Below the pieces are notes generated by a model. It did not search any database. It was not told the DNA's origin and saw only the letters and a list, made by a program, of their open reading frames with translations. The translations under genes were made by a program, and so were the position numbers. A stretch of DNA of 64,000 nucleotides. It comes from Terfezia claveryi. Taxonomy: Eukaryota > Ascomycota > Pezizomycetes > Pezizales > Pezizaceae. Where the stretch lies: assembly GCA_015179025.1 (NCBI GenBank), contig WHUX01000078.1, positions 62,001-126,000 of the forward strand, given 5' to 3'. Position 1 is the first letter of the stretch; each line of letters opens with the position of its first letter. Below are positions 1,942-43,381 of the stretch, piece after piece.

Positions 1942-4752
1942 GAGAAGCCCATTATTTTTGGAGACGGTGTGGTGGTATGTTAATTGGTATGTTGCAAAAA
2001 GAATTTTCGGGGGAGATTTTTTTTTTTTTTTTTTTTTTCTTATCCCCTTCGATTCGACCGGATTGATGATGGTGATTTATTCTTTTTTTTTTTTTTTTCT
2101 TTTTTTTCCCCCCTCATTATCCACTCACATATCAATTCTCCGCTTTCAAACTTTTCTTTTACTTTTTTTTTATTTTTATTTTTAATTATCTTGGCCTCGA
2201 AAGAGGTTTGATTGAATATGGCCTGAGGTATGTTTCTTCTTCGGTTTGTCTTCGAGGATGATTAATGATGTTATGAGTATCTTGTGTGAGTGAGTGTGTG
2301 AGCGTCCATGTGGACTTTATTGTTGACCTCTTCCCCCGCTAAAATCTTCAAGGATGAAAAATCGATTTAGTTGAGGAAGCTCTCCCACGCTATAGGCTAC
2401 TTACTGTACTTATGTCTGGGGGGCTCTGCAGAGGTACCTACCTACCTATGCTAAATACAGGAGGTTGCTGAAACTTAAATATTATGCATTAGGGGTAGCG
2501 AATTGTTCATACAATGGATTCCTATAGTAGAGCTGTTCACCCAGTGTAGTGATATATACTTTGAGCTCTGGAGCCATCTTTTCTCGGCATAGGCAATTGC
2601 ACATTGTCCAATTGTGCTTGCGGACAAAAATTGCTCTCGCCCATATACGGCATATAATGAGTTATTGATTTTCTTTCTTTTTTTTTTTTTTCTAGTTCTT
2701 TTGTTGAGAAATTCTCTTATGTTATTAATACCAATGGATTTTACCTCAAAAGAAGTTTTGAAAGTCTAAACTTTTGGTTTAAAAGGTTGGGGCTCCTCCA
2801 AATCAAATTTTGACACACCTTCACTTCAATGCAATTCAGCAGAGTGCAAAAAGATATCCTCTGCTGGCTTCTCGATGATATGGCTTCAATTCACCTCTGA
2901 GCCGGCTCGCCCCCACCCACCCCCCCAAAAAAAAAAAAAAAAAAAAAATGCCGTCGGGATAATGGGATCATACATACCTACATACCTACCCCCTATGTTG
3001 GTTATGGGGGTATTGAGTACGTATACCTATCGGTCTATTGGTGAGCATATTGATATCTGTGGTGTACAAGGTGCCTACAGGGAACAGTCCACATATGCTG
3101 TCGTCCCTTCAATTAGTTTTCCAAGTTTGCCTTTTGGGTATCTAAGTAAACCCGGTAGGTTCTCTAGATACTGTACGTAAGGAGGGGCTCACTGTGCAAT
3201 CGGAATGGGCTAAGTCCAGAGTCAGCATACCTAAGTGACAGTATTTATTTTGATTGAGTTTGCAACCACTTGTTTTGTTTTTGCCTACAGCTACAGGAAG
3301 GTGGGGGGGGGGAATCCAGTTGGCAAGTGATGCTGATAATCTTTACTTCAATGACTATGTAGTGAATCAACTGTGTTCTATATAAATGCCAACTAAAGTC
3401 CTCAAGCTCTTAGATTCTATCAGGCGATTCTTTCTTCAAAGTGCATCTCTATCAATATAACTGAGCTTCGGTACTTAACTGACAACCTTCTGATTAAACA
3501 GCACGACTGGATCCGGTAAGCTAAAATCATATTTGCATTCAAGCTGAACCAGCAGCCAATATAGATTAAGGTGTCCTAGAGCGTGATGAAAATCGCAATG
3601 AAACTCTTGGAATGGAATACAACGCAGGACTCAGTGGTTACCCTTCATATTTAACCTCCCGCTCACCATATATTTACTTGTATATCCACTACCGGGAGCT
3701 AACACGTCATGTCATCCTTCGATGTGACCAACTGGTGTGGAACGGGTAGGCAGATCGTCCGTCATGATCACAAGAATGTTAGGAAAGGGAACAGGTTTCC
3801 CCTAGCCAAAAAAAAAAACATTTGATTTGCAATAAAAAAAGAAAAAGAAAGTATCAACGTTAACAACGTACAATTATTACATGGACTTTAAATCCTATTT
3901 TCATGTAATCCATAAATCTATATCTAGAACGTTTCGTCACAGCCATGCCCAACAGCAATCAACCCACAGCCGCATTCCGAGTATCGCTCTAACGCAAAAC
4001 ATTATTTTCCGACAGTTTAATCGAATGCACAGGACACTAGGTAACCTTCATGCATATGCTTTTCAGAGGGCAATATACATTGACTTTTTTGTCATGGAAT
4101 GAAATCCAACAATCAATAACAAGTGGAGTCACCAGTGCTTTGGGGCGGGGGGCTCAACCTCCCTATCCGATACACCATTACTAGTAACAATTTGCAGTCC
4201 ACATGTTAAACTGCACATTAGCACAACTTGATTTTTAGTCAGTTGTAAGCTGATATCTGTTATGGCATCCCAGAGAGAGAGCACATGGTCATCTCTTAGA
4301 TGCAATACAATTCATCCCCAATGCCTTCGTATCCCTCTTATCCGCCACGAAAAGCTTCACCAGAAATATTCAGTACCTCTTACGGACTCTCAGTCGTGAC
4401 AAATGCTCAATACAGCCCGCCTCCACGGTCCATGCTGGCTCCCAATTTTTATTGTGTACTTTCAACCCTGACTGCATCATCATCATAAATACTAGCTATC
4501 TTATTCTGAAACGGTTGTTGTTTCAGTCACGACCTTTACTTGCTGTATGACTACGCTCTTTGCTGATATATTAATGTATGCCTTACAGTTTTAGCAACAA
4601 TGGCTTCTAAGTCACTGGAACAAAGCAAGTATGGCTCTGCTTTAACGTCAATGTGAAGATGTAAGACTCGATGTCATATTTCATAGCTATATGACCTAAA
4701 ATTTTCCAATTAAAATTAAAATCAGAATATAATTAATGGATGGCAAAAGTGA
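1942..4752. other. Intergenic region with poly-T and poly-A tracts
   Basis: No supported gene lies here. Long T runs sit just after the first gene at 2020-2038 and 2083-2105, and an A run of about 23 lies at 2927-2948. There are short TACC-type repeats near 2439-2453 and 2970-2990. The small ORFs in this stretch lack composition or domains that would support coding. The T runs downstream of the stop at 1941 may belong to its 3' untranslated or termination region. Confidence 0.5.
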
Positions 4753-4836
4753 AGGTCGAACTGGGAGTCGAACCCAGGTCACAAGAATGTTCTTAAGTGA
4801 TCAAAATCTTATGTGCTACCGTTACACCATTCAACC
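4753..4836 (-). tRNA. tRNA-Gln (anticodon TTG) with a 13-nt intron
   Basis: Read on the minus strand, the acceptor stem GGTTGAA pairs with TTCGACC (one G-U), and the D arm GGTGTAACGGTAGCAC and T arm with GGTTCGACTC are standard. The anticodon stem TAAGA pairs with TCTTG. The anticodon TTG lies at 4802-4804, and the 13 bases at 4788-4800 interrupt the loop one base 3' of the anticodon, the canonical eukaryotic nuclear tRNA intron position. The discriminator base is 4753. All arms pair, so this looks functional. Confidence 0.9.
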
Positions 4837-5956: not shown

Positions 5957-5984
5957 AATGATGCCTAGTCTGGTTAATGATGCC
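5957..5984 (+). repeat. Ultrashort insert TAGTCTGGTT between 9-bp direct repeats
   Basis: The 9-mer AATGATGCC occurs at 5957-5965 and again at 5976-5984. The ten bases between, 5966-5975, are exactly TAGTCTGGTT, the core found at the other sites of this family. Removing the ten bases and one repeat copy gives a plausible empty site. The arrangement is what a transposition event with target duplication leaves. Whether it is a footprint or a complete tiny insertion is not known. Confidence 0.7.
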
Positions 5985-5997
5985 CCCTTCGGTGACC

Positions 5998-6450
5998 GCT
6001 GATTCTGGTAGGGAGACCTGTCCTAGAGCCGAGTGGCCAAGGCAGCTAGCTTATCGGCTTTTTCGTTGCCATCAATGCTGATATGGGAGCGACCTAATTT
6101 CCTTTATCGTATGGTACTTGAGTCCGTTCGAGCGGTTTTATTGGTTTTGGACGGGGCTTAATTAGGCTTCTTTGGGAGCTCGATCGCCCCATATGGATAC
6201 AGGAGGAGGACGGGGACGAATGGGACGTGATGGAGGCTTGTTCAATTCTTATACAGACTGCTGGCCGGGAGGGGGGGTCTTTGATCATTCATATGTAATT
6301 TTCTGGCCAACACGCCCTCGAGTATTGTTTTCATTTTGAGGTTCGAAGTTTTTGTTTTGCCATTTCGGCACTTGAGTCTATTTGCCGCGTCGGTCCTGGC
6401 AGATTAACTTGCCTTGTCCGGAATCCACCCGGAAAAGAAAAAAAACTTCT
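5998..6450. mobile_element. Two decayed Tad1-like LINE scraps in opposite orientations
   Basis: On the minus strand, about 6010-6100 encodes an RNase H C-terminal motif with ISIDGNEKADKLA, the same GNEKAD motif seen in the intact copies at the window end. On the plus strand, about 6165-6270 encodes a sequence close to ELDRPIWIQEEDGDEWD, matching the last 40 residues of the LINE at 25.7-26.4 kb. The conserved 3' untranslated sequence (GGCAGATTAACTTGCC near 6397) and an A-rich end near 6434-6447 follow. Both are fragments with no coding capacity left. Confidence 0.65.
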
Positions 6451-6615
6451 ATCTTAATGGGAAACACAGCAATCTTCGTTAAGGAACAGTTGTTTATGGT
6501 CATGAGGTTGTAGATGGGCCGTGGAGGAGAAGAGTAAACACGTCAATATGGCATATCGCGGTATAGGAGTAATGAGTATCTATTTATATAAAAGGTAATA
6601 AAAAAAGGCATATCA

Positions 6616-6629
6616 CAGTCTGGTTGATA
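6616..6629 (+). repeat. Divergent copy of the TAGTCTGGTT unit
   Basis: The sequence CAGTCTGGTTGATA resembles the core of the ultrashort family. The flanks (left GGCATATCA, right CATGATCG) are only loosely similar, so a target duplication cannot be claimed. It may be an old member. Confidence 0.35.
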
Positions 6630-6849
6630 CATGATCGTTGATTAATAATGTTTTCTAGTTATATCTTCAGCGAAGTATATGAGACTAAATACATGGTGAA
6701 GTTCTTCTTAGACCCTATTTGATATAGGGAGCCTGCGCACCAACGTCAAGGTGATGAACTTCATAGCGCAGGTTCCGTTCTCTTTCTTCCTCCTTTCCCA
6801 TACGACACCCCTTTCCATTATACTTCACTTCCACGTGTTTGTTAACCAC

Positions 6850-7228
6850 GTCCAGCCCAACCTGAAAGTCTGCCTCAAGCGAGAATAACTTGAATAGAGT
6901 ATAATCAATTAGAAAGGCCTAGGAGTGCAGGCAGTTGAGAGAGATGGTTGATTAGGAAAAAAAGAAGTGTTTAGACAGGTTTAATCCGAGTAAAGGAGTT
7001 GATAGGTGCCAACCAGACTGAGTTGTCACTCCAATTTCACGTATATATTTGTTGGCCTTTTTTTTTGGCCCTAACTTAAACGTCAGCTTCAATTCAAATA
7101 GAGTATTGGTTCATTGAACAAAAAAAAAAGTTCAGTAGTTTCAACATAATATTGATTGACAAAGGAAAAGAGTTTAGATGGTTTTGAATGCGAGTATAAG
7201 AATCGTTGGATGCCAACCAGACTGAGTT
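6850..7228. repeat. Diverged tandem duplication, about 200 bp per unit
   Basis: Two segments, roughly 6850-7026 and 7065-7228, share an ordered series of short matches: an AATAGAGTAT segment, a TTGATT segment, a GTTTAGA segment, and a shared end TGCCAACCAGACTGAGTTGT. The ultrashort unit sits at the same place in both, so it inserted before the duplication. No ORF is supported in it. Confidence 0.6.
6996..7025 (-). repeat. Ultrashort unit flanked by a 6-bp direct repeat
   Basis: GAGTTG at 6996-7001 and 7020-7025 flanks a segment that ends in GGTGCCAACCAGACT (7005-7019). Compared as 9-mers ending at the unit, the two flanks agree at 7 of 9 bases. A diverged second copy of the same unit lies at 7211-7223 within the tandem duplication. 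Confidence 0.5.
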
Positions 7229-7269
7229 GTCAGCACACCAATTGTAAGCTATAGCAGGTGGCTTAGTCT

Positions 7270-8915
7270 GTAACGAGGCGGGAACGTTGTACTGGTTGCA
7301 CTACCCCTCGCAGAGGGGAACGTTGTGTCTATTGGGGCTCAAGGCCCTAGCGCTTGGCTATAAGGTGGTTGAAGAAAGAAGAGGAGTGGGAGGATTGGGA
7401 GGAAAGAGGGGTACTTATAGGATTTTTGGGACTCTGCCAAGGATTGGGAAGTAGTGTTGGGGGAGCGGGCTTGGCTCTGCGGGCTTGGCTGCTAGGTTTC
7501 CTGGTATATATGTAGTACAGTTGGGGCATGGCATTGCTAGTTGTTATAGTCAGATCCTAGACTCACCTACGGGGAGCATCACTCAAAATATGAAGGGAAA
7601 CCCAGACCTAGAAATAGAGGTTATATATGTACCCAAGCTACAGTTACTGACAGCGAACGAAATGGCTCACTCTGTACAAGCCTCCATGACAGCAAGGAGA
7701 AACGTTTTCGGGCGTATCTCACAACAAGAAAGCCCCCGAGCGTCAACTCAAGATCATTCGATAGAGCCCATCGATCTCTATCTCATATCCCAAATTCAGT
7801 TTCAGGAACCTCTTTACACACTTTTGCCCCGTCCCTGAGGCCTCAGAATCCCACGATATCGTGTGATTCTTCCCTACCATACTATATCGTGTGCTTGTCA
7901 GTCCAATACTCAGCACGCCATCACAAGCCAATCCAAAGGGAAATAATTGCCATACCTCCTGGGCCCCCAATCACCAGAGGGACTCGAATCACAGGTCCAC
8001 AGGTCAAATCGCCCCCCCAACCACACAGTCGCATCTCACCAGATATCGCCATCGCTATAACTCCCCCCCCTCAACCATATCGCCCGGTCATATTCCATGG
8101 ACGCAGCTATGGCAAGAGGGAGGCAAGGCCTTAAGAGCGAGGACCTACCGGTAGGAGCCTCAATTATATCACGCGACGGCTTTACAGGGAAACTCAACGG
8201 ATCAACGGCCACCGCACTCCTATCGCTAGACCTACCAGATCTCTAAATCGAGGAGTGATTATCGTCAGACCCCACCACCCAGCGGTCATATGCCACCGCC
8301 AGGATTACTGCAGCGCCTCCCCCCGATCCAGTTCATGCCCTCCAGGCCAATTGGAGAAGAAAGAGGAGGACGATCTAGACGAGGCATTGTTTTCAGATGA
8401 GGGATCGCAATCCACTTACTCGGAGGATTCCGACGATTCTCCCTACTCGGCCCACTCAATAAGCTCAGGAGGGACTACACCCCGAGCTCCCTTCCCCTCC
8501 CTATTCCCTACACAGTCACCGTCGCATTGCTCAGTGCAAGAACCAGGCTGTGACAGCAGATTCACCTCGGAGTGGGACAGTTCGAACAGCTGGAGCTTAA
8601 GGTAGCAAGCGCCATCAGCAAGGGCTACAACAACCTACAGCAGAGCTTAGAATCAAGCCTGGATCGGATTATGAGGAGGTCAGACAAGAGAAAGAGACCT
8701 TAATGGGCTATAACAGATACCTAGAAGAGAAGCTCGGGAAGCAGAGGGACAGCATGGACAAGAGAACGGAGGCGGTGGAGGCTGGCATGCTGGCACTCGA
8801 TAACCGTTATGCTGACATCAAGGGAGTTCAGCAACACCCACATGGGAGTGCAGGGGTCAGTATAAAAGCGAGCTCACCTTGTTCAGCAAGCTGTGTGCTT
8901 AGATTTCGTGCAATG
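7270..8915 (+). pseudogene. Cluster of broken ORFs, possibly a decayed gag-like or ORF1-like gene
   Basis: Several plus-strand frames remain open without a usable ATG-to-stop gene. About 8255-8605 is acidic and Ser-rich (contains EEDDLDEALFSDEGSQSTYS). After its stop, further frames encode coiled-coil-like pieces, including AISKGYNNLQQSLESSLDRI and, from 8703, YNRYLEEKLGKQRDSMDKR. The order of an acidic, disordered part followed by a coiled coil is compatible with a retroelement ORF1 or gag, but no zinc knuckle or polymerase follows. An unrelated decayed host gene is equally possible. Confidence 0.3.
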
Positions 8916-8917
8916 GC

Positions 8918-9020
8918 ATATGTCGGAAGCATCTTGAGTGGCGAGCCTACGTTATGTGGCAAGCATGCCTTGAGTGCCAAGCTCACTATATGTCGCAAGC
9001 ATCTTGAGTGGAAAGCATAA
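8918..9020 (+). repeat. Imperfect tandem repeat, three units of 34-36 bp
   Basis: Three consecutive units begin with ATGTCGGAAGC, ATGTGGCAAGC and ATGTCGCAAGC, and each contains CTTGAGTG about 15 bases later. The units differ at several positions, so the array is old. It lies directly after the broken coiled-coil ORF. Confidence 0.65.
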
Positions 9021-9025
9021 CTACC

Positions 9026-12000
9026 AGTGGTAAGCGGGTCTGATCACCTCTTGTGAGAGGTACTCTCACTTGCATATTGACAAGTTAGGTATTGTGAGGA
9101 GTCGCAGGGGTGCAACAGGGGCCGTGGTTGCTAGTGGTGCACGAGCTGCTGAACCATGGTCTTTGAAGGCTGCATAGCATTCCTAAAGTAACATTGAAGA
9201 CCCTTCCTAACAGAGCAAAGGGGAATAAGGTTATCCGTTTCCATCTTCTATATTTTGTTTTCTGAAGCCGGGCATTCAAAAGTGACCTGTTAAGTAAAAT
9301 CTCTAGCAACAAGTAGGCAGAAGTTTTAGAGTGCCTGGTGAGTTGTTAAGTTTCGTGAAGGTTGCAATTGTTTGGAGGAAGAACTACTATCATCTCGTTT
9401 CTTTTCGTTAACTAGAGGAAAGATTGAAAGATAATGCCATAGGCATTTTAATACGTCCGCTATCCCAGGCTGTACTAATCAACCTGACTCTAAGGAAAGG
9501 TATAAAGGCATGGTAGCTCCTCTTTGCTCCTCTGTTCTTCTCACAGTGTTTTTCATAGCTAGTTTCTGCACTGTCGGTCAACAGATAACTTGCTCTTTCC
9601 AAAGCATCCCATTATTGAATATCATATCCTTGATATTTCAACCACTTCTCTACTATGAAATTCAATCTGCTCTACAACATAGTTACCCTCAAACTATTAA
9701 TATCGACGGAATGTACAAATCCCCCTTGGCCTTGATGGAATATATGCCTTTCGTTACCAATATCTGTGCGGCCTGATGTAGAAGGTCATGATTTAGCGGA
9801 ACGATGTAATGTCTTGTGATAACACCCCAAAGCGCCTTCTCTATTACAACGCCGAAGTGATATCAGCTGTTGACAAACTCCGGTATATGTTTGCAGTAGA
9901 CTGGTCATGAGACAACCATCACTAGTTGGGGCACGAATATGCGTGGTCTGTTTAATGTGTTACCCTGGACTCGATTGACAAATAGCACAAACTTTCTATT
10001 TTTTTTAAGTAATACATTGCCCGTATTTATATTATTCCCGCAAATGCGGAGGGTATGTCCTTCCTATGGGCTGGTCCCCGCCTCATACCCGGAAAAATTA
10101 CGTACGATGCAAAACTAGAAGGAAATTCGCGCCACTCTGGAAAGCTATAACCCTCTTCCCGAGACCTCCACCCTCCCACCCATGGGCACTACAGCAATGC
10201 GCTTCATTCCGTACCGCCCAGTTGTCACAAACACAACTCGGGTCCCCTCAGCTCTCCCAATCTTGTGCCTCCACCACCTCTGCAGTCCCTAGTCGGTGAT
10301 CAAGCCTCAATGCTTGCCGGCTCCACGCTAGATTCATGTGAATACCACCAAAAACGAGTTCTACTCGTGTTGGTTCTCATAATTGGATCGATGCGGTGCA
10401 TGCTTTATCAAAGGTAAATACCATTCATCACGGGGTAGTGCACCCCTAGCAAGCTCTGTTTATCCCAGAGCAATGTTAAGCAGAAATCCTATGACTTCGA
10501 ACGTCACCTCAAGTTCTTCAGTTCGCCAATGTATACATTTAATAACTATCACCTAATCAAAGCTCGCCGTATCTATATCGCCTATTACCTATAGCTTACA
10601 ACTACGACGCCGGTCCATAATTTCTTTTATTCAATAGCCGCAATCAAGAGTTACCCTGAGACCGACACACTCGTGTTCCTCACGTGATATAAACGTATCT
10701 TTCTATTCTCGACCGTAGGAAAATACATGGTATCCTCCGCATGATCCATTTTGTCTCGGCACATCTCGGCAGTACTCGAGGTAGGTTTCTCACACCTGGG
10801 TTACCACCCTGATGCCAAGCCGGGATGCCGAATTCAGCCAAAGTCCACATGTTGAACAGCATAGGCTAGCTCATTCAAGAGTTTCTAGTAAATCAATAAT
10901 ATACATACCAGTAATGATTCACCAGGAAAAATACATACTAAACAAGCAAATCCCACCCCGAGAACCTATTTCAGGCGTATTCATGATATATATTCGTCAA
11001 AACATAACTACCTCTCCCAGTACAGCTAGCTAGGCCTCTACATTGACCAACTTCCGCACATATTAAACTCCACATGATCGATATTCATCGCAGCTATAAA
11101 ATTAACGAGTAAAGTCAACGAAAAAAGAGCTCAGAAAAAGACACAAACGTGCATACGATGCATTGGTATATCGTAACGAACATACAACGAGAATAAGGAA
11201 CCTGAAAATACAAAAACGTACACATGATTAATGTTGAGAGGCATCAAAGCAAATGTAAACAAAGAACCATTGCGGAATGACATCCAAAGTCGATATAGCA
11301 AGAGGCCAAAAAAAAAAAAAAAAAAAAAAAGGAAAATGAAACTCACCAATGTTCTCAGCAGGTGAGCAAGGGTGGCAAGAGAAGCTTCAGCAACGAATGG
11401 TTTGAAGGCCGCTCGGGTCTCCTCCCGCTCATCACTAATTCTACTCTCCACTATGTCACCAAACATTGAACATCATACAGGAAAGGGTATAGGCTACAGA
11501 ACCAAGTTCCAAAGATGGAACATCGGAAGCCAACTAAAAAAAGCTGAACCCCAATAACACAATGCCTAACGAGCGGTACTAGTGCGTGCATGAGCAGACC
11601 TAGAACAGCGGATGTATGAACACAAGACGCCTAGGAGAATAGATGGAGAACAAAACAGAAGAAAACAAATGCAATCCATCCCCAAAGAACTCCTAGTTCG
11701 AATGATAAGGTAAGTAATATAAGTAACTGCCTAAGATGGTAGCGAGTAAATCTTCATGAAAAACAAAATCGTCATAAAGGTATATGTATGCATAGTGTTG
11801 TAAGAGAGTGTAGCTTGTCATATACGAGTGCCGTTTACCGTGGTCGTTATATGGACATAGGAAAGTCGTTAGTAATTATCGTTTAACCCTTCTTTACTCG
11901 GTATGTGGTAGCGTCTTGGGGCCCTAGACTGTGAGACATGTATGAGAATATCCAGGAAAGTTGAGATATCAATCCCATCCGTGAGAATGAAGACGGGTAA

Positions 12001-12312
12001 CTGCACAAAAACATGCGAGTTGGAAAAAGGAAAAGTCGAGGAAGCCACGAAAATGGGGAGTGGATGTGTAAAGTTGTCGAGACTGGTGTCGCCGGATATC
12101 AAAGTTCAAAATCGAATATCATCCTCCAGCGTCCCAGTTTCTCCTTTAAGCAGGCACTCTGCCTTTGACATTTCTTCTTCGTTTACCCCTTGGTCCTTCG
12201 CATCAAATCTGCTCATATCGTATCGTCCGGTGATGGAATCCCCTAGTCCTCCCCCCCACCCGCATTCCCTCAACCCCTCACACCACAACAGTGCACTCCT
12301 CCCCTTATCACC
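9026..12312. other. Intergenic region, nothing firm
   Basis: There is no supported gene here. An 88-residue ORF at 9510-9776 begins with a signal-peptide-like segment (LLTVFFIASF), but nothing else supports it. An A run of about 20 lies at 11309-11330. The region upstream of 12312 is the 3' side of the minus-strand gene that ends there. Confidence 0.4.
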
Positions 12313-13680
12313 TTATGCGCGAACAGCAACCCACCCACCTCCAAACGGGTGTCCCTCACTCCTCTGGTACCCTCCCCGCAAACTTCTTCCCCTAATATCA
12401 TCCACAGCCCTTGCCCTCCTCAGCTTCTTCTCTCTCCCACTCCCATTCCGGCTACCACTTCCCCCACCTCGCGCTATACTCTCCTCCCTCTCTCTCTTTT
12501 TCTCCCCTCGGGAGCCTTCGGAGTTAATATAATGCCCCCCATCTCCCACTATGGTCCCCCGATGCTGATGCCTGTATACCGGTGGAGGTGCATAATATTC
12601 GGTATTGGAATTATATACCCCACTAGCATATTCAGGCGGTAGCCTTCCCCTGCTGCGTGTTTTCCCAGAAGGCTTTACCTGCGTAGTTCCGAGAGAGTGC
12701 AACGCAGGAAACGTTTCCGTGCCAAGGTAGTATGCAGATTCGGGAGTTGGTTCATACGTACTGTATGTCGGTGGATATTGATATCCGTATTGATTAGGAG
12801 TATATTGCGGTTGAAGTGGATATTGGGGATAGCTGCATGTATATGTATATCCCCCCTGGCCACGATGGGACGACGATGATGCCTCTCCAGATGCACCTCG
12901 AGATTGCCTTCGGGAGGTAAAGTATGGATCGTTGACTACGTATTGCGCATGATGAGGTTGCTGATCACGGGAACTTCGACGACGAGACTTTGAGCTAGAC
13001 CCAATTATGGGTTTTGAAAGCGATGAGCCCATGATGGCTGATGTTATTGAATGTCTCCTTCCTCCCTCTGACTGAAGATATCGATCGTCCCTACTCTTTC
13101 CCCCTCGAGATGATCCCTCCGCCGCCGGGATCTCAGTCGGCTGCGGAACGAATCTGACTCGTTTCCCTTTCTTGCGGAGCCGCTGTGCGTACTGCCAGAT
13201 GTATTCAGCGAATGTTCTGCGGGGGGGCTTATACGTATATGTAGGTTTAGATGTGGAAGAGGAGGAGGGTAGTACCCTTGCACTACTGCGATAATTTCCT
13301 GACGAGGTGGTTTTCGTGCTGCCGTCAGTCTCAGGGTCGGTTTCCCACTCGCGGGGCGTGGATGGGATTGTAGTGGAGGAAGTATCTCCTGCAACAGCGA
13401 CTGGGTAGTATATAACCCTACTATTCCCCTGGCGATTGCCTTTGGTCTGGCTTCTTTGGGTCGACGGGTTTCGGAGAATATACTGTGGAATTTTGATCGC
13501 TGGAGTTGGTGTTCTCTCAGTCGAGGAAGAGGGATAGTGTATGCCCCAGCGCTTGCTTGTCCTGCGGGAGGGGTAAATGTAAGCAGAATGCCCTGGCCTC
13601 AGGGAGGAGGTGCGTGGGGGCGGTTGGAGGGGATAATAGTAACTATCACCACCCCCTCCGTGGCTGCTTTGTTGCATATT
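12313..13680 (-). CDS. Tyr/Ser/Arg-rich orphan protein, 455 aa
   Basis: A long minus-strand frame. I place the start at the ATG at 13680 (MQQSSHGGGGDSYYY) because the extra 59 residues upstream are hydrophobic and Tyr/Ile-rich, unlike the rest, and look like untranslated leader. I do not recognise a family. The protein is mostly disordered: Ser/Thr/Arg stretches, a central basic segment with FAEYIWQYAQRLRKKGKRVR that could form an amphipathic helix or a nuclear-localisation signal, then a Tyr/Pro/Gln-rich region (repeated YPxQY-like motifs) and a Gly/Arg/Glu-rich C-terminus ending in GGGWVAVRA. The opposite-strand ORFs over this interval are shadows. The long frame free of stops supports a gene; the role is unknown. 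Confidence 0.7.
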   Translation of the reverse strand, partial: NMQQSSHGGGGDSYYYPLQPPPRTSSLRPGHSAYIYPSRRTSKRWGIHYPSSSTERTPTPAIKIPQYILRNPSTQRSQTKGNRQGNSRVIYYPVAVAGDTSSTTIPSTPREWETDPETDGSTKTTSSGNYRSSARVLPSSSSTSKPTYTYKPPRRTFAEYIWQYAQRLRKKGKRVRFVPQPTEIPAAEGSSRGGKSRDDRYLQSEGGRRHSITSAIMGSSLSKPIIGSSSKSRRRSSRDQQPHHAQYVVNDPYFTSRRQSRGASGEASSSSHRGQGGYTYTCSYPQYPLQPQYTPNQYGYQYPPTYSTYEPTPESAYYLGTETFPALHSLGTTQVKPSGKTRSRGRLPPEYASGVYNSNTEYYAPPPVYRHQHRGTIVGDGGHYINSEGSRGEKKREREESIARGGGSGSRNGSGREKKLRRARAVDDIRGRSLRGGYQRSEGHPFGGGWVAVRA

Positions 13681-16600
13681 TAGGGGTCGAGTGTACTTGG
13701 TATAAATATAGATTATGGAAAATATGGGTATGTATTTAGAGCCGTGGATATCAATATTCTGATAATGTACGAACACGAAATTGGACAAGAGGAGAAAGAA
13801 AGAGGGAAGAAAATAGAAAGATTTAAACTTACGACTCGAGTGGACCCTATATACCAACTGACAACTTCAAACTGCTTCGCTTGTCGATATTTCGAGAAAT
13901 GACTAGAGTCTCCCAAGATCAGGTCAGTATGGTAACTTTGAATGGACATTCGAGGTCAGATGAAATGGAACCCCTTTGCCCCAGTTTCAAATTTTACGAA
14001 CCAGCACGAAATAGGGAATATCTCAATCACGAAACCAGAACCAAGGACATTAAGCAATACACTATGACGCAAAAATCAGGGATAAAATCTAGTCCGTTTA
14101 GCAAGTCCCCCCTTTGCCACTTTATGCACATGCGTGTGATATTATGATATTCAGTGATCGGAAAGTCCTCCTTTATCAAATTTGCCCCTTCAGCTACATG
14201 GAAAAGCCACACCTCTAACCAATCACCAGAACTGAAAATAGAAACCGTGCATAGCCTCAGAGTCTTGGGTCCAGTATATGGTAGGGTGATGATGGATGAA
14301 TGACAAGAAATCTAGCCCACGCGTACCTGCTTTAGTCTGCCCCTCTGGGACGAGCAAAGAAGTATAAGACGGATATATAGATCTGGATCTCAACGTTGCG
14401 GATATCTGCTGTGTCTATATGCGTGCGACGTATGTATGGGTGTGGTTACTGTAGGTATGTTGTGCGTTATGTGCACCACGCGCGCAGGCGGAGCGGGAAC
14501 GACGTTGACGTTGGACGGCGTGGGTGCACAAGGATACCGGGGTTCTTTATAAAAATGGTATCGACCTATGACTTTTTGAAAGAAGCACAAGATCTAGATG
14601 CCTCCTCAGCCGGGTGCATCAGCAGATCTATAGCGGCAGCGAATGACGAATGACGTTGAGAGCTGAAAGGGGCGGAGGTCGTTAGTTGGCGCGCAGTTAG
14701 TCACATAAGCAACGAGTGTTGGTGATCTGATCTTGTCCCTGCTCTCCGATACAATGAATCTAAGCAAGCTGATAGAATATGCCTCCAATATTTTCCTTCG
14801 CCCTTATTCCTTCCATATATCTCGCCGTTGAAACGAACGATCGTTTTCTTGCGGTATACAAACGTAGAGCTGCAGATACAGATCGAAAGAAGCCCGCAGC
14901 CCAGTGCAGCGCAGCCAATACCTTAATAAACTATGTCGCCTCGCCGCCCCGCGCCCCTCGCATAACATGGGTGGCATGGAGGGGTGTAAGTAGATCGCGG
15001 TCACCCCTCGAACGTGGATCATTGTGACTTACTTTAGTGTGTTGGCCCCCCTGCATTCTACCCACACCATATGGCCGTAATAACTTACGGCAGGGAGGGC
15101 CTTTAGTAGCAAGAATACGTTAGTTAGGCAGGTATGCTCTCGGTGAGGATGTCTAACCTGATCATGAGTAATACACAGTCGTTTTTTCTCGTCATGGTCG
15201 TCAGCTACCCCAGAGCTCCAAGCTCCTCTAGTAAGATCTTTCTTCAATTTTTCATCTTCGCAGTTAAATCAGGCGGCATATATTTCTCGTATGTCCTCAT
15301 GCGGCAAACAAACAAAGGAGAAGTAAAAAAACTGTGACCTGTGAGCCTTAGAAATAATGCAAGAACTACCTGCCGCCATGGCAAAGCCCCGAGGCTCGTA
15401 TAATACCTGCATCCGATGTGATGTGAGACACAACTCGAATAATTATCAGCTGTGCTATGGCAAGTTACGGTACTACTGTAGCTGGCTGTACTACATAGCT
15501 CACCTAACGGTCAGACCGATTTATAATTATCTGCAGATCTAGGGCGTGGAATCTCTGATGACTGGGCCGTTTGCATCGGACATTTCAATACATGTACTTA
15601 ACTGAGCATAACAAACCTTCATTCAGATTTGATGTATCAGCACAAAGATTATGTACACTTTATCCATAACATTATGACTGGGTAGGTACTACAACCCCGA
15701 GCAGATATCTGGCTTCGGGTATGGACGAAAAGAAACTTGAACTACAGTACATAGTTAATGCAAAGACAGGGAAGACAGAGGCACATGCAGCCAAATTATG
15801 AGGCGTTCCTGCTCCCAATTTCGAGATCCCTACCAACAATCCCTTTCACATATATATAGTTGGTGCAAATAATATCCACTAAGATACTGAAAACCTCAAT
15901 ACGAATTCACCCCAACTTGCATACATCCTTCATTGGGATTCTGGGTTAATATAAAAGGTTTTTCTATTCCTTTTTCCCTTTTTAGTAGTCGACTGAAGGT
16001 AGAACCAGTGGAGTATCCAATCTCGTACAAGATGGCATCTATGTATGTATCATACTTTTCGTGGACTAGTGATGGTCGATGATCAGTCTTGAAAATTAAT
16101 CATATAGTACCGGAATTACCAAGTCCGGATGTCCCACCTTCAGCCCTCATTGTTTGTGGCTCTCTCCATTTCAGCCCCAGTGAGAAGGCTTCAGGTAAAA
16201 TTCTGTCATGGCCCCCTGCTTAACCTCATATAGAGCAAGCTTTGTAGCTTTGTTCTTTGGTGCAGTCAGGGCCGGGTGAGATCTCATAATAATGGAATAC
16301 GTGCCCGGAGCGGGTCGGAACACAACTTAAGGCTCAATGCGTGCAGACCTTGATCCACAGCCTCGCGAGTAGATGTCGCCATGCAGGTTCCTATTGGTTA
16401 GAAACTCAAATTATCACCGAAATCGCAAGATGTAAAGTATGCCTAGTCACACACTATACATACTGTAGCAGAGGAACCTCCTAGACCCCCTCTACTCACT
16501 ACAGTCCTGGAATATTCTTGAGTATCTTCAATTACGTAGCGCTGCAATCAAACTTAACTAACCCATAACTAGTTTCCCCTACAAATCAATATCCAAACTC

Positions 16601-19600
16601 AGCCTTCCACCTTGTAATCCTGACCTGCCATGGGTTTGCGTTACACCCCCTCCATAAGATCGCCTCCGCATTCCTCACACATGGCCATCCGTATCTCCTG
16701 TGCAATTGGATAACGGCAAATTTACATCCCTGTAGACTGGGTGCGTGTGACAAGAGTCGATCCACGTGAGCATGCAGAAGGAACCCTGTTACAGCCAATG
16801 GGATCGATTGGTGGAGGTGGGATGACATGATATGACTGAATTGTGAATGCTTGAGCATTATCCCTGTGAGTCATGGGGGGATATTGGAGCCGACATAAAA
16901 TAAAAATATCATGAAAGCCGATTTCATGAATAATGTACTATGTGGAAGAACTGAGTAGGAATAGGTAGGTATTCAGACTGGGGTCAATTGTGACCCTTTG
17001 ATTAAGTTGCCCGACTTTGATTTGATAGATCTCGATCCCCTCCAATATCACAGACATACTATATATTGTGCCCTGTGCAGGCGCGCCGGTACTTTCAGAA
17101 TATGGATGTACAGGAGGAAGCTTCATTTTATGTACTCGATGGGGTAATAACTGCAACTACCTGAACCTACCTGAACCTACCTGATAACCTACCGTACCGG
17201 GGGGGCCTGAATCACTGAATCTTCACCCACGGGAGAAGGTACCGGTAGGTATAATCGCCCTTGGCACGTACATATTATTTTTACAAGCCATTAACTGTTC
17301 AGTCCCCTCACCATGTTAACTTAGGTATCACAGTGATTCTCTCCGTACCTGCAGGTAGCATTTTTTCCTGTCAGGCCCCTGTCAAGAAGATATACACGAA
17401 TGGTGGAGCTCATGCGCAATCTTGCATTGCATCCGCATGCAGCTACCGCAGTCCATGCCATATGTATCTGCTTATCCTCCAATCTCGTTAAACTTGTTTG
17501 GAAGGCTGGCCTGCAGAAGCGGTTTTTCAATTTGGGGACTGAATCGACATGTGATCTGTTTAGGTAAATATATGGGGTGATTAAATCTGCAGTAGATCGA
17601 TGAATAAATTGCTGACGGTTCATTTCACCCAAAGCTGTATGAAACAATGGTTAATAGGAGTTTGAGCCTCGTACAATTTGTTTGTTCATTTTGTAGAATG
17701 ATCCATGATCGCCTGGTCGCGTGACTCTGATCGCCCTCGCTTCGACATAATTGGACATGCCGCACGGGTTCATCATCTCCGGAGACGAGGGATCGTCATA
17801 GACCTTAATATTGTTATAACTGTACGGAGTACTGTACATATGAGCAGATAAGGTAAGATCAGCCTCCTTTGCTCTAGTAGTACTTGTCACAAATAAAATC
17901 CGGGAGCCGATCTTCCTACAGGTAGTCAAGGGGAACAGAATATCCCCAGCTTTTGCGTCACCTAAAGAGCAGAGCGAAACGTATTCACTGCCAACTTTTG
18001 AGATCTTGCAACCAGTCTAATCAATCTTAGACTATTCGACATACTATTGAAGACGACCGTTTGCATCTGCCAATGTTTATTCTCACTTGCTCTAAAAATG
18101 GAGCCAAGTACAAAGAGGTCAGGTTAGTTCCGGAATTCTATTGGCAGCGAGATAGCTTGAAATGTCACATGCTTGGGAAAAGATGACTGGGCTGAAAAGG
18201 TAACTTTGGTGTACAGGAACGGGGCCTTTGGTGTACCGGAGGGAGGGCACTGAGCTTTTTGGAGTTGGTAGTTGATATAAAGGCTACTTATGCTATACAT
18301 CGTAAAGAGGACATGTTCCCAATTGCACGAAAACAAGGCTTGCTAATCCTCTAAGAATGGCTGCGTGACTTCTTTGGGTTTGATTTAGTTATTGATATCT
18401 TGGAGACTCTGATATTGTAGCTAGCAAGACATATGATCCATCAATAATTCGCAATAGCAGAAGTACCTGGATCTCACTTGCGTGACTCGAGCTCGAAGCA
18501 TTGGGTTCAGTTTGTGCCTCGGTATGGATCATTTCATTTCGTTGACCTTAACTGAGCTTGCATTTGATTATCTGCGAGTTTGTATTAGATTCATTTTTGT
18601 GATTTTTGGGTTTTACCACTGGTCATAGTATCTATTTTCCGACCACGTTGGGAGCTTTAGCGTTCGTCAGCTTCGGTAGCGGGGACAAGGACTCTAGTCA
18701 GACCATGATGACGTTGAACTGTGAAAATTGGCAGTGAGATTTGGTTTTCTAAATCGCCCAAGCTACCTCTGAAATACTGTACCAAAGTGTTCATGAACGA
18801 ATCCAAATGCCTGGGGCTCCTGGATTGAGACGTAATATTTCAGGCTTTGATCTTGCGAGCCTGACATTAAGCGTGGTCTAGATTTGGTTTGAATTTGAGT
18901 TTTTGCCAAAGGCGAACATTATATAGGAGCAGCTAGCATATAAAGATGTCATGTATGCAGGTTGGTGCAGTACATATACACAGTACATAGTCGTACACCG
19001 CATTGTTTTATCACCAAAACTGCCCCATTTGATATTTATGCAAATTTTCTACAACCCCAGATCATCAAGGAAACCTTTCACTAATTATAACCGCAGAATA
19101 TACAGACCCCCACAAAATTGACCTCCTGCATTCATCAATAGAACCGAATATTGGTTGTAGGTTTGTGATGGCCCTGACTCGCCTGATGTGACGCATATCT
19201 AAGTGTGTGGTGCATGGAGAGTCTCACCAAAGGCGTGCGTAAAGACCGTCCGATAAAATCAAGCATGTCAGGGCACAAAACTATACAAAACTATATTAAA
19301 AGAGTGCCTACTAGGTAATGCACGGCATTTCCGGCAACGTATCGGGTACGTGCAGGAATACCTCCACGCAATCAGAGGCTTCGGTTATTGTGGAGGTGGT
19401 AACTGTGTCAATAGGTATTAGGGCACTGAAAGCAGTTCTCGTGTGACTAGTATCTCGCATACAAATGCCAGAGTGAGTTTGCCACTTACGCAGTTTCATA
19501 CCAAATGTACTGTACGTATCCGCCATGCATGCCCTCAGCTGCGGGTACGAATTCGTTGTATCTATCGGCTACTTGTGTATGCCCGAGTTATGCCCAAAAA

Positions 19601-20031
19601 TCATTTAGCTGGACTAATTTTCTGGCCTCCTCCAGGGAAGCATGAGGTATTAGAGCAGCGTCAATGTCCTCTCACTGCTCAAGTATAGATATGGTATGTA
19701 GGTATAGGAATTTGTCAGCCCCGGTGTATAACGCCCCATCATCGTGGAATAATCACAATTGCAATATTAATAACAGGCTAAGAATATTCTATCTTGTCCA
19801 TACCACTATGGAAGCCCAGCGGAGGCGATACCGGTGGTGGGGTTGATCATCGAGGTGCAAATGATCCATTTAACATGGTCTATAGGGCAGGAGAGACATA
19901 CGGAAGCAAGGGCAAAATTAAAAGGGGGATGAGAAACCTTGATTGTATAACACGAATAACATATTTGGTAGTCACTACATAGTGCAGGAAGCAAAGCTAA
20001 AGCAAAGAGTTGGATCCGGACCTCAATCGCT
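13681..20031. other. Intergenic region of about 6.3 kb
   Basis: Only short ORFs occur, none with recognisable domains. A small tandem repeat of the decamer ACCTACCTGA type lies at about 17159-17196. There is no tRNA, rRNA or transposon end that I can support. Confidence 0.4.
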
Positions 20032-20064
20032 ATACTTCTCGTGCCAACCAGACTAATACTTCTC
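20032..20064 (-). repeat. Ultrashort 15-bp unit between perfect 9-bp direct repeats
   Basis: ATACTTCTC is present at 20032-20040 and 20056-20064. Between them lies GTGCCAACCAGACTA (20041-20055), the reverse complement of TAGTCTGGTT preceded by five further bases. The repeat abuts the unit on both sides with no spare base. Confidence 0.75.
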
Positions 20065-20157
20065 CGCAGATGCAAATTCTTGGGTTAGTCATGGCTCGAA
20101 CTCACATACTTATGCATCCGGGTCCACAATCAGATCATCCCCATTTCGATACTGCTC

Positions 20158-20187
20158 CTCCCCACCTAACCAGACTACTCCCCACCT
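20158..20187 (-). repeat. Ultrashort 10-bp unit between perfect 10-bp direct repeats
   Basis: CTCCCCACCT is present at 20158-20167 and 20178-20187 and flanks AACCAGACTA (20168-20177). The unit is the exact reverse complement of the one at 5966-5975, with an unrelated flank. It lies 103 bp from the previous member. Confidence 0.75.
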
Positions 20188-20651
20188 ACGAGTTCCAACC
20201 AGCCAGCCACGCATAGGAACACCGCACAAACCTGCCCTGTACCTCTCACTCTCGATTCCCCAGAACCGGGAACATTGACCACTACCATCAGCATCACCAC
20301 AAACACCACGGCTGCTACCAGGGAGCGCCCCCTTATACATCTAAACCTCCTCCTCCAAAACCAGATTCATCCCTATCTGTAGCTCAGACTATAGGTAGTG
20401 CTCGAGCTCATTCCACTTTCAACAACTACCGGACAAATACCAGAGCGTCGGCATCTGCACCCTCCTCTATCGATTATAACCACGGTACTGGAATTGTTCA
20501 CAACAAGCTCAAGCTTAAGACCCATACCTCAGATAGCTAGCACAGAAATAGTAGAACCCCCATTTCGGCAGCAGCACCTTTCACAAACACACAGACGAAG
20601 ACGGAAGACTGTGCAGGTGGGCAACATATCCACACAAAATTCAGCACAAAT

Positions 20652-23104
20652 ATGTTTCTCTCTGATACTGATCAAAATGAAAGTGAGCTGTCTAACACTA
20701 CCTCAGCATCTTGTGAGAGGAGTGGTAGTAATAGGATACTACGTAAAAGGAACTTTAAATGGATGAAGAAGACTAAGCACTCTGGGGTGGTAAATTTGAG
20801 TTCAAGCTCAAGTTCAAGTTGGAATTCTGGCTCATCTGATGCCAATGTATCTTCGGAGATGGAGGAAGCACCACCCCGAGGCAAGAGAAGAAGGAGTCAA
20901 AGAAAAAAAAGCTTCACCAAATCTCACTGGAGGCGTTTCCTATATATGCAGAAAGTGCCAGCTGGGTGAAAGCTAATCCTCAAAGTGAGCGTCATTATGG
21001 TGGAGGATTTGCTGCACATGAGGCAACCAAAAACACTACGAGGAAGGAGAAGGCGAAGGCGAAAAGTAGGAATAGTGGTGGTACTGGGGGTGGGGTGAAA
21101 TTAGATGGTACTATGGTGGATATGCCTCCGCCTGGCGCTCTCTGTGGTTGTGACAGCCTTTCAGCTGGTGCAAAAGCTCATATGAGGGCTAGCATTGACT
21201 GCCACCGGAATGGCAGCACAATGGCTAATACTAATATCTCGAGTTGTATTTCCACTTCGTCACCAACTGCCGCTACAAAATCACAATATATGGCAATTTC
21301 AGCATCCTCTTCCACGGAAGTTATGACGGATGGGGCTAAGTCCTTAGAAGCCTCAATTGCCAATACCAAAGCCCACCTGGCTGCATCAGCATCAGCATCA
21401 GCATCAGCATCAGCAGTAGTAAATCCTGCCCATGTTACTCCCATAGCCTTTTCCTGGGAAAATATGGAGGCAAAATGGGAGGGTTACCCTTACACGTACA
21501 GTCATATCGCTCCTGCCCCAGCTGGTCCAATTACGCAGCAGTATAAGAAAGTTCCCTCTGCTTCAGCATTTGCCTCCGGAAATACCACGAAGGCCAATAG
21601 TGCAGCTAAAAAAGTCAAACCGATTCTAAAAACCGGTACACAAAATATGTGCGGAACAGTATTTCTTAATGCCTCATCAGGAGGGGAGTATAAAGTAGGA
21701 TTCCCTGCAGAGGTTGTATCAGATGAGAGGGGGATATGGGTTGAAGAGGCCAAGGGGGCGCTGAAGAAGTCAAAGGTAGATGAAAAGAGAGCGAATAAGA
21801 GAAAGGAGAAAAAGGAGAAGAAATACAGAATAACGAAGAAGAAGGAGAAATCATCGTCATCTTCTAGTTCATCATCTATATCGGATTCAGATTCAGATTC
21901 AGATTCAGATGCATCTCATACAAGGAGGGAACTAGAGAAGCTGCGGAGGAAGTTGAGGAAGCTGAAAGGAGAAGTGGGGCGGGGTAAGACATTTCGGGTT
22001 GTTGGAGGCGGTGGAGATATGTTCACACATGCAACTAGAGCCACAAGCGAGGGAGTGTATGCGCAGGGTGGACTTGACATCAATGGCACTGGGTGGGAGT
22101 TAGAAAATGCTAACGCCAACGTGAATGTGTACGGGTATCTTGGCTATGCTGGAGGACACGCTAGGATGTCTGCAGATGAGAAGGTAGATGAGGATCCGGA
22201 AAGGATATTTGCAACTGGGAAAGCGAAGTCGAAAGCTAGAACGGGCAGATTATGGGACGAGGTGCTATCTCTAGGGGCCGCCAGTATGGATGCGGGGATT
22301 GAAGGTGCTGGCAGTGCTGAAGTAGATGCTTCAGCTGCAGCTCAGGCCCTGATCAATACTGTGAAACATGGGCATCGAATTCCACCTCCTTCGTTATCGG
22401 TACCACCGCCAATACAGTCGGAGGGAACCACTGGTACCAACGTGGATGCAAACATTTATACCTACCACGCGGAATCATCGGAGAAAAGTCCCGAAACCAA
22501 CGGTAACCCTCCGGCGGTCCCGCCGAAAATTCATTGGCAACATTATCAGAATAGTAGGGAGAAATCGGATCAAGAATTACAACACATACTTATAGATGAG
22601 GAATCTTCGCATCCTTGTGGAGGAGGAATAATCCCTAGCTTAGGGGTATCCAACACCCATGGTCCATGCACATTGATTACTGATACTAATGGCGGTGGAG
22701 ATGCACGCATCCAGTCCCAAGAGCAGCACCACGTACGCAACTACAACCACAACCACCCTCCAGCACCATCCCCTCAGTTACTCAGCTGCATACAATACAG
22801 CGCCATCCATTCCCACTCGCAGGAGGATTATGCTCAACAACAACACAGTTATCAATGCACCAATCCACATAGTCACACTCACACGCACACCCATAACTCC
22901 CCTTCGGAAGCTGATGGCCATACCCACACTGGGGCTCACGGCTGTCATGATCACGGACATGGGTTTTGTTCGTATACATATACATTGCCTGAGGGGTGGA
23001 ATACCGTGCAGGTTACGACTATGACATCGTGGTCACCTGTAGCTCCGGTTGCCGTTATGTGGGGGGGATGGGGATGGGGATTCGAGGATTGGTATGCACC
23101 GTGA
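20652..23104 (+). CDS. Ser/Asp/His-rich protein of about 815 aa, probably frame-broken near 20905
   Basis: Two frames together look like one gene. The first opens at ATG 20652 and encodes a Ser-rich and Lys/Arg-rich start (contains RKRNFKWMKK, then poly-Ser, then RGKRRRSQRK). The second is open from 20840 to the stop at 23104 and has no ATG near its start, but reads sensibly across 20905-20990 (LEAFPIYAESASWVKANPQ). The switch needs one missing base, most simply in the A8 run near 20902-20910, or a short intron. Downstream are Ala/Ser repeats (SASASASAS near 21390), a Lys-rich block, nine Ser, SDSDSDSDSD, a coiled-coil segment (RRELEKLRRKLRKLKGEV), and a C-terminal His-rich stretch (HTHTHTH, HGCHDHGHGFC) before an aromatic end, GWGWGFEDWYAP. 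The His/Cys tail could bind metal. The family is unknown. Confidence 0.65.
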
Positions 23105-23490
23105 ACGGAAATATCTTGCGAATATCGTTAAGGGAATTTAACAATGGAGGATGAGGTGGAGAAGGAGAGGGTCGGTAGGGGAGAGTGTCGGTAGGGAAGA
23201 GAAGAGGAGGCTTAAGGATGTGTGTCGGTACTGGATGTGAAGGGATGAAAATTATAGGTTAGATGATCACGGCATCTCAAGATGGCAGTTACCTATTTAA
23301 TCTATTTCTTGTTCTCCCTATCACTGTACAGGCGAGAAGCTGAAGAGGAGCAAAAGTCTGCCAATGAAGAAAGAGTACATTCAGCTAAACTTGTGCATCA
23401 AAATTTGTGACTTAAGAGCGGCCTGCTGGTTCTTCGTGCTATCCTGCTAATCCTCATACATAAAATTATCTTCATTTAAGATATAAGACA

Positions 23491-23573
23491 TCTTTGGTAG
23501 TATAGTGGTAAGTATTCCCGCCTGTCAATATGACTGAGCGCGGGCGACCGGGGTTCAATTCCCCGCCAAAGAG
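23491..23573 (+). tRNA. tRNA-Asp (anticodon GTC) with an 11-nt intron
   Basis: The acceptor stem TCTTTGG pairs with CCAAAGA, with discriminator G at 23573. The D arm GTAGTATAGTGGTAAGTAT and the T arm CCGGGGTTCAATTCCCCG are standard. The anticodon stem CCCGC pairs with GCGGG. GTC is at 23524-23526 and an 11-base intron at 23528-23538 sits one base after the anticodon. Pol III-type T runs follow from 23576. Confidence 0.93.
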
Positions 23574-23619
23574 TTTCTTTTTTCCTTTTTGCGATTTTCG
23601 CGGTCTGGGCTGGGGTACC

Positions 23620-23681
23620 AGCAAAGTAGTCTGGTTGGCACAACACCCTCCTGTGAGCAAAAGTAGTCTGGTTAGCAAAAG
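23620..23681 (+). repeat. Two ultrashort units sharing a thrice-repeated target
   Basis: AGCAAAG (23620-23626) is followed by TAGTCTGGTTGGCAC and 14 further bases. AGCAAAAG (23656-23663), the exact unit TAGTCTGGTT (23664-23673), and AGCAAAAG again (23674-23681) come next. The second unit is a perfect 10-bp member with an 8-bp direct repeat. The first carries the longer end GGCAC. Together they read as target, 29-29-nt-scale remnant, target, 10-nt remnant, target, suggesting two insertions into the same site or a rearranged larger element. Confidence 0.65.
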
Positions 23682-23918
23682 CTAAATATTAATGTCCTAA
23701 TTAGGTTTACTGCAATTACATTAGCTTGGCTCGTTTGCGTCGGACTATGCGTTATGCGCTACGTTATGCGTCGTAAAGTCAACACTTAGAGAAATGTCAG
23801 TTGTGTATATAGGTACATGTCCACATACTGTATTGGAAGCAGCAAGGAACTTCTATCTCATCCGAAACCACTAGAAACTGTGGGATGCGCAAGTTATAGT
23901 TGTCTTCAGAATATGCAT

Positions 23919-23950
23919 ACTATTTTGTAGTCTGGTTGACAAGTATTTTG
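23919..23950 (+). repeat. Ultrashort 14-bp unit between near-identical 9-bp repeats
   Basis: ACTATTTTG (23919-23927) and AGTATTTTG (23942-23950), eight of nine identical, flank TAGTCTGGTTGACA (23928-23941). The first ten bases are the shared core; the last four vary, as in the other longer members. Confidence 0.6.
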
Positions 23951-24822
23951 TTTGCTCTGCATACAATTGTTCGCTAGCTAGCAGGGGTTCTTATCGATAA
24001 GAATTAGTCCGGGTTTTAACATCAAATTGAGGGCTATTTATTAAGAAAAGTTCTTACATCACTCCTACAGTGCTGCCTATTTTTTGATCGAGACTACTAT
24101 TTTTGTGTGTTTTTAATGGTAAAAGCATATATTCGATATAAGCATACCTCCTTGGCAGCCAAAGATACTGGGAGAACTATATGCACAAACAATCATGTGG
24201 TAGCGTACCCTAATACGGATTTTATTTTATTTATATTTATATTTTAGTAACTTGGTACTCGTATTCAAACTATCTAAGTAGTTTTATACTCGGCCAAACC
24301 CTGGGCCGTTCCCCGCCCCGTATCTTCTTGTACAAGACGAGGTACCCCCCCGGAATCAAAATAACCAGGCTCAATAAAGAAAGAAGAAGCAATGCGAAAA
24401 ACTCCCACTAACTTGCACTGATGAACTGCCCACACTTTCTTACACCAATCTTTCCCCATCTCCCTGGGTTTCCTCCCTTTCCCCCAAGGTCAATCCATCA
24501 AATGCACTGCATTCTGTAGTCCGCTTTCCTGATTTGGTGCTGCCACGCCGACGTAAGTCAAGCCTTTATTTCGCCCTGTTGCCCCACCACCTCAGGTGCT
24601 TCAACTTTGTGTGAATACTGAAAATAAGGGGAGTTAACGGTATGAAGCAATTGAGTTTCACGTTCAAGTGGTGTTGGAGTGTTTTTTTCAACGCATATTG
24701 TAAGTATACTTGGCCAAGATTTACCCTCCTTAAGTCGCTGGCCATAGGCTTCCATGGTCAAAGATGTTAGATGGACAAGGCTAGTTTCACCGTGAAATAA
24801 ATCTAGTGGGAAGCCAAATTTC

Positions 24823-24857
24823 ACCATTGACGGGTGCCAACCAGACTACCATTGACG
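24823..24857 (-). repeat. Ultrashort 15-bp unit between perfect 10-bp direct repeats
   Basis: ACCATTGACG at 24823-24832 and 24848-24857 flanks GGTGCCAACCAGACT (24833-24847). It lies 90 bp upstream of the ATG at 24947, so it is in the promoter or leader of that gene. Confidence 0.75.
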
Positions 24858-43366: not shown

Positions 43367-43381
43367 GTGCCAACCAGACTA
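43367..43381 (-). repeat. Ultrashort unit GTGCCAACCAGACTA without direct repeats
   Basis: Identical to the 15-base unit at 20041-20055, but the flanks show no repeat. It may be an older member with diverged flanks or a fragment of a larger parent element. Confidence 0.5.

Follow-up and report, generated by a model that had tools for sequence, protein, structure and literature searches.

Repeat-framed units in the Terfezia claveryi window

We analysed a 64,000-nt stretch of the fungus Terfezia claveryi (contig WHUX01000078.1 of assembly GCA_015179025.1, positions 62,001 to 126,000; hereafter the window), in which copies of a ten-base motif, AACCAGACTA, lie between two copies of a short direct repeat. 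Read with the fixed end last, such a unit consists of 0 to ~34 nt followed by AACCAGACTA, often directly succeeded by a 9-mer that duplicates the 9-mer preceding the unit. The outer end is fixed (...GTGCCAACCAGACTA) and the inner end is variable. The window contains eight exact copies of the ten-mer, five of which are framed by a repeat of at least 8 bp (Table 1), while the copy at 43372 has no framing repeat. All five framed units had been reported in a first-pass annotation of this DNA and were recovered at the places it named; its coordinates were right for four sites and one base off for the last, whose repeat begins at 24824 and not at 24823.

The five units belong to a genome-wide set of thousands of motif copies. 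In the 72.56 Mb genome (794 contigs), AACCAGACTA occurs in 7,569 exact copies compared to 161 for the reversed control, TAGTCTGGTTGGCAC in 2,885 copies (control 0), and the 28-mer CTACGAGAGGCTTGTGCCAACCAGACTA in 125 copies (control 0). Comparison of the extended end sequences with viral and prokaryote collections gave 0 matches.

Framing of the motif clearly exceeded the background of the window. An 8-mer is repeated across a spacer of 8-16 nt at 362 of 127,880 window positions (both strands), or at 137 of 127,880 when low-complexity cases are left out, and against the latter rate the framing of five out of eight ten-mers corresponds to a binomial tail of 8e-14. The per-site chance of 4^-8 to 4^-10 given in the first-pass annotation was too optimistic, as the measured value is ~1e-3 over spacers of 8-16 nt, but its conclusion that the framing is not due to chance holds. 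In line with this, the shuffled-motif control that it had proposed showed framing at 1 of 111 sites for six permuted ten-mers and at 53 of 141 for the motif, both searched with up to one mismatch in the window and 20 stretches of 10 kb (L009-L028; 264 kb in total). Because these stretches were picked for containing listed 15-mers, their densities do not represent the genome as a whole, and units below 15 bp are underrepresented.

The framing repeats peak at nine base pairs

Repeats of at least 6 bp, sought within 45 nt, were present at 64 of the 139 exact [AG]CCAGACTA sites in the window, L009-L028 and L105-L124. For repeat lengths from 6 to 14 bp, we counted 3, 7, 6, 37, 7, 2, 1, 0, and 1 sites, respectively (n=64). 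The peak at 9 bp together with the falling tail, which is near the fall expected from chance extension, indicates a 9-bp duplication plus chance matches. The 10-bp CTCCCCACCT repeat at 20158..20187 was read as 9 bp and a chance match, and repeats shorter than 9 bp may be mutated 9-bp copies. Among 20 further exact 15-mers chosen irrespective of a repeat (L105-L124), seven showed a 9/9 and four an 8/9 match. Likewise, 40 fetched 28-mers (of the 125) comprised 19 with 9/9, 10 with 8/9, and 11 with less, whereby two of the 40 represent a single duplicated locus.

One-ended units have a fixed outer end and two main length ranges

Unit lengths were determined for the 54 distinct units with an exact 9-bp repeat from the 139-site sample, of which 52 were one-ended and two were two-ended, i.e. 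retained at least 8 nt of the opposite end. Among the one-ended units (n=52), 28 were 8-17 bp, one was 18-25 bp, 20 were 26-36 bp, and three were longer; since these analyses reached no further than 70-80 nt inward, longer remnants lie beyond their range. The sole unit of 18-25 bp, at window position 7884, is a spurious site and not the motif proper. The commonest lengths were 15 bp (11/52), followed by 10 bp and 31 bp (5/52 each) and 28 bp (4/52).

The inner boundary opened with TA, the first bases of the opposite end, in 14 of 79 one-ended units (p = 1e-4) and with TAG in 6 of 79 (p = 6e-4), where p values are by base composition and the 79-unit sample includes loci picked for the 28-mer or for inverted pairs. 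A hairpin at the inner boundary, suggestive by eye, was rejected, as eight sequences folded no better than shuffles (z -0.03 to -1.32).

A minority of units retain both ends

A minority of units keep both ends, many of them as near-palindromes of 30-60 bp. Genome-wide, 46 inverted pairs of exact 15-mers were separated by 0-30 bp, compared to none in the control. Their centres mostly differ, with four occurring twice, and pairs with unrelated centres are probably neighbouring units. When 20 inverted pairs were fetched, the outer repeat was 9/9 in ten, 8/9 in one, and 8 bp in two, while seven had none. Of 14 distinct two-ended units whose repeat is exact, 13 could be decomposed into a left-end and a right-end piece that meet with a filler or overlap of -4 to +5 nt; the one exception to this split has a variant end, TAGTCTGGCT, which lacked a reference for comparison. 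With 27 further pairs that have 32-91 bp between their ends, the set comprises 73 pairs up to 118 bp long, most commonly of 45-49 bp (14/73).

Units are clustered and stacked

Neighbouring sites were at most 50 bp apart in 24 of 119 cases, compared to 3.9% under uniform placement (sites with up to 1 mismatch in the selected stretches). In L013, near 8459-8483, one unit is lodged inside another unit plus its flanking repeat, and this nesting implies that insertion was repeated. Three units are stacked in L025 (8323-8413) on overlapping 9-mers of one stretch, AACAAAAATT; the middle unit carries a related type of end, TAGTCTCGTGCCCAGACCCTCCAGAGAGG. Judged by eye, two units also seem to be stacked on AGCAAA(A)G at 23620-23681 of the window, with the 23627 unit apparently sitting on the target of the neighbouring unit at 23664-23673.

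Further features of the window

The features of the window are compiled in Table 1. The CAGTCTGGTT sites at 7011 and 7215 were rejected as units, because they are part of a separate direct duplication. A 1.8-kb stretch of the window, searched for paralogous empty sites, returned among the matches listed only itself, tRNA stretches (8 places, positions 189-292), and otherwise short matches, which among those listed fell mostly over the 23627 unit. Outside the window, stretches L076 and L079 (contigs C72 and C94) are identical over at least 172 bp around one unit, which reflects either a duplication or a redundant contig.

Table 1 Units and other features of the window, with positions counted from its first base.
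Span	Strand	Feature	Unit position	Flanking sequence	Remarks
4753-4836	-	tRNA gene			84 nt
5957..5984	-	one-ended unit TAGTCTGGTT	5966-5975	2x AATGATGCC (9 bp)	exact repeat search
6980-7028 / 7184-7232		49-bp direct duplication			82% identical; includes GCCAACCAGACTGAGTTGTCA; framing unlike the units
20032..20064	+	one-ended unit GTGCCAACCAGACTA	20041-20055	2x ATACTTCTC (9 bp)	exact repeat search
20158..20187	+	one-ended unit AACCAGACTA	20168-20177	2x CTCCCCACCT (10 bp)	
23491-23573	+	tRNA gene			83 nt; found by one of two scans
23620..23655	-	29-nt unit TAGTCTGGTTGGCACAACACCCTCCTGTG	23627-23655	AGCAAAG / AGCAAAAG	imperfect repeat only, by eye; exact search: none
23656..23681	-	one-ended unit TAGTCTGGTT	23664-23673	2x AGCAAAAG (8 bp)	
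23919..23950	-	one-ended unit TAGTCTGGTTGACA	23928-23941	ACTATTTTG / AGTATTTTG	7 exact bp in flanking repeat; 8/9 when read as a 9-mer, by eye
24824..24857	+	one-ended unit GGTGCCAACCAGACTA	24833-24848	2x CCATTGACG (9 bp)	
43367..43381	+	GTGCCAACCAGACTA			no recognisable flanking repeat
60205-63928	-	RNase H domains in three reading frames, one of which also has a reverse transcriptase domain			apparently degenerate remains of a long interspersed nuclear element (LINE)
61495-62925		reverse transcriptase frame			best named matches Tirmania nivea (61% identity) and Terfezia claveryi (64% identity), over about a quarter of the frame

The units as probable excision footprints

Taken together, the units are probably excision footprints of a cut-and-paste DNA transposon: both target copies are kept, and terminal sequence of one or both ends lies between them. 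Such a transposon, with inverted ends TAGTCTGGTTGGCAC...GTGCCAACCAGACTA, would insert via a 9-bp staggered cut and thereby generate the 9-bp repeat. On its exit, up to ~28-34 nt of the transposon ends would stay on the flanks, most simply as long single-stranded tails produced by staggered cutting within the ends, like the 17 nt of the Drosophila P element, and end joining would close the gap. Usually, one tail would be lost back to the target repeat, while the other would remain at full length (26-36 nt) or in trimmed form (8-17 nt); joins that preserve some of both tails would be less frequent and yield a near-palindrome. What the sequence shows directly is the repeat, an outer end that is fixed and an inner one that varies, the two-ended forms, and the copy number of the motif, while an intact element with its transposase, staggered cutting, and the course of repair are inferred. 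Assuming a haploid fungus in which no template restores the element, each jump would leave one scar, and few elements could therefore leave thousands of scars. Of the two origins suggested in the first-pass annotation, stereotyped excision footprints holding one end is the better supported, based on the variable two-ended joins, the fixed and variable ends, and the 9-bp duplication, although an intact element was not found in the 264 kb examined for one.

Comparison with P-element excision

The P element provides the closest point of reference in our comparison of junctions. Its excision cuts 17 bp inside the ends (PMC7776569), and in junctions from Rad51-lacking flies, copies of the target repeat enclose partial sequences of the two ends, joined through a short overlap or insert (PMC2895639). 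By our own count of the junction table in that paper, 44 of 66 junctions keep both ends in part, 19 keep 5-8 nt of one end, and three run beyond the target repeat (PMC2895639). Similar to these junctions, the units retain both target copies with terminal-repeat pieces of variable length in between, and they include near-palindromic two-ended joins with short overlaps or few extra bases; one-ended forms occur in both sets (PMC2895639). In contrast to the P element, the duplication is 9 bp instead of 8 bp, ~28-34 nt per end are kept instead of at most 17 nt, and both ends are kept in 2 of 54 units compared to 44 of 66 junctions in Rad51-lacking flies. The 8-bp duplication of the P superfamily was seen at 6 of 64 sites, the mode being 9 bp (37/64). 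Because of the longer kept ends, the 9-bp duplication, and the usual loss of one end, we do not file the units as P element.

Observations at odds with excision footprints

Several observations weigh against excision footprints. One-ended units dominate (52/54), unlike P-element junctions, in which both ends are found in 44 of 66. A recognisable repeat of at least 6 bp is missing at 75 of the 139 [AG]CCAGACTA sites, the repeat falls below 8/9 at 9 of the 20 L105-L124 sites, and a test of target symmetry was suggestive at most (p 0.08), so that symmetry is not claimed. Inverted pairs longer than 60 bp persist, with 1-5 of them in each 5-bp bin as far as 118 bp. Six of the 27 more widely spaced pairs are 103-106 bp long, two of them with equal internal spacing; the pairs above 60 bp, including these six, could reflect clustering, intact short elements, or a duplicated repeat. 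Domains of P-type transposases (PF21787, PF21789) gave no match, but control searches likewise gave none.

Moreover, the full-length element that the first-pass annotation had suggested looking for was not found in the 264 kb, where the search covered inverted pairs spanning no more than 3 kb whose outer repeat was at least 6 bp, and distant repeat copies up to 10 kb per stretch. The only such pairs were a palindrome of 30 bp and a 91-bp composite in which units are stacked. Nor did 333 ends, compared over 110 nt inward, share an interior: the longest end-anchored alignment between different loci was 82 nt at 73%, with one duplicated locus set aside. For one end in L017 that lacks a repeat close by, the 9-mer recurs at a distance of 777 bp, which we attribute to chance. 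L017 and L025, which lie on one contig, have in common a 170-bp identical stretch near units, at differing distances from the unit ends; it is not anchored and was rejected as a shared interior.

Relation to other transposon families

Miniature inverted-repeat transposable elements (MITEs) are defined by inverted ends and a target duplication. Both are found in the two-ended units, whereas, unlike in MITEs, most units are one-ended and share no interior. MITEs are not known to be as short as these units (10-60 bp). Target duplications of Mutator-like elements (MULEs) are 8-11 bp long, a range that includes the 9-bp duplication of the units. A narrower 8-9 bp is stated for MULEs in a study of Muta1, whose excision is ~90% precise with target repeats and leaves up to 13 bp of the end in constructs without them (PMC5225508). 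Retention of an end piece is common to the units and to these Muta1 constructs.

Apart from the length of 9 bp, nothing supported the Mutator-type attribution made in the first-pass annotation. The genome contains 21 matches to the MULE domain (PF10551), and none of the 10 loci inspected with 1.5 kb on each side was bounded by the ends of the units. L094 was the only one of these 10 loci with the motif at no more than one mismatch, while five others had copies with 2-3 mismatches only. L094 was rejected as a source, because its motif lies within inverted arms of 333 bp or more that are unrelated, and was called chance. The arms of this locus (357-689 and 2947-3279) show 99% complementarity and extend to the edge of the fetched stretch. 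Target duplications are 8 bp in hAT elements, with 5-7 bp in subgroups (PMC12730594), and 4-8 bp in Kyakuja-Dileera-Zisupton (KDZ) elements (PMC12810828, PMC12730594), in contrast to the 9 bp observed here. Both families, with at least 150 hAT-domain and nine KDZ matches in the genome, were therefore rejected as sources based on duplication length.

Alternative origins of the units

The short units might themselves be mobile, i.e. ultrashort insertions, consisting of a single end with up to 31 bp or of a ~50-bp foldback, made by an unknown transposase with a 9-bp cut, similar to the smallest insertions of an unknown system that the first-pass annotation had offered as its second option. We consider this unlikely, yet it would account for the lack of a long intact element (264 kb; 333 ends), for the preference for 31 bp among one-ended units (15/79 in a sample partly selected by the 28-mer, and 5/52), and for the four palindrome centres that occur twice genome-wide. 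However, a one-ended 10-bp unit would give a transposase no second end to join, the inner ends vary, with TA and TAG at the inner boundary above base-composition expectation, and the two-ended centres are mostly different.

Internal deletion or aborted gap repair of resident elements, as opposed to end joining of an excision break, would likewise place element ends between target repeats, but should produce a broad range of lengths including long remnants. With only the 30-bp palindrome and the 91-bp composite among outer-repeat pairs of up to 3 kb in the 264 kb, we regard such an origin as improbable. Least probable of all are extremely 5'-truncated retroinsertions, in which a short RNA ending in GTGCCAACCAGACUA would be copied at a nicked target: the fixed 3' and variable 5' ends of one-ended units and the reverse transcriptase and RNase H remains in the window would be in line with them, but the sharp peak at 9 bp differs from the variable duplications of LINE-type target-primed insertion (0-13 bp in CNL1; PMC12810828), and the two outward ends and the 18-25 bp length gap clash with gradual truncation. 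Compared with such retroinsertions, end joining after excision is the better fit to the two-ended forms, the length gap, and the TA or TAG at the inner boundary.

Implications

Our analysis extends the first-pass annotation by the genome-wide thousands of copies, the 9-bp repeat length, the 26-36 bp class, and the two-ended units. Titles and abstract openings retrieved with the motif text included no transposon paper, and those on footprints, the P element, truffles, and Pezizomycetes described no such system among the matches listed. Units of 10-31 bp would probably be missed by standard repeat annotation. Tentatively, the source might be an undescribed DNA transposon lineage of very low copy number with 9-bp duplications and several thousand scars. 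Its transposase would cut ~28-31 nt inward from the ends, almost double the stagger of the P element, and its breaks would mostly be closed with one tail lost back to the target repeat. If the units are footprints, they would suggest a transposase whose staggered cut is unusually long. They would also offer thousands of natural end-joining outcomes at one defined type of break in one genome, documenting how a fungus mends the breaks that a transposon makes and how often an element has jumped that by now may be almost lost.

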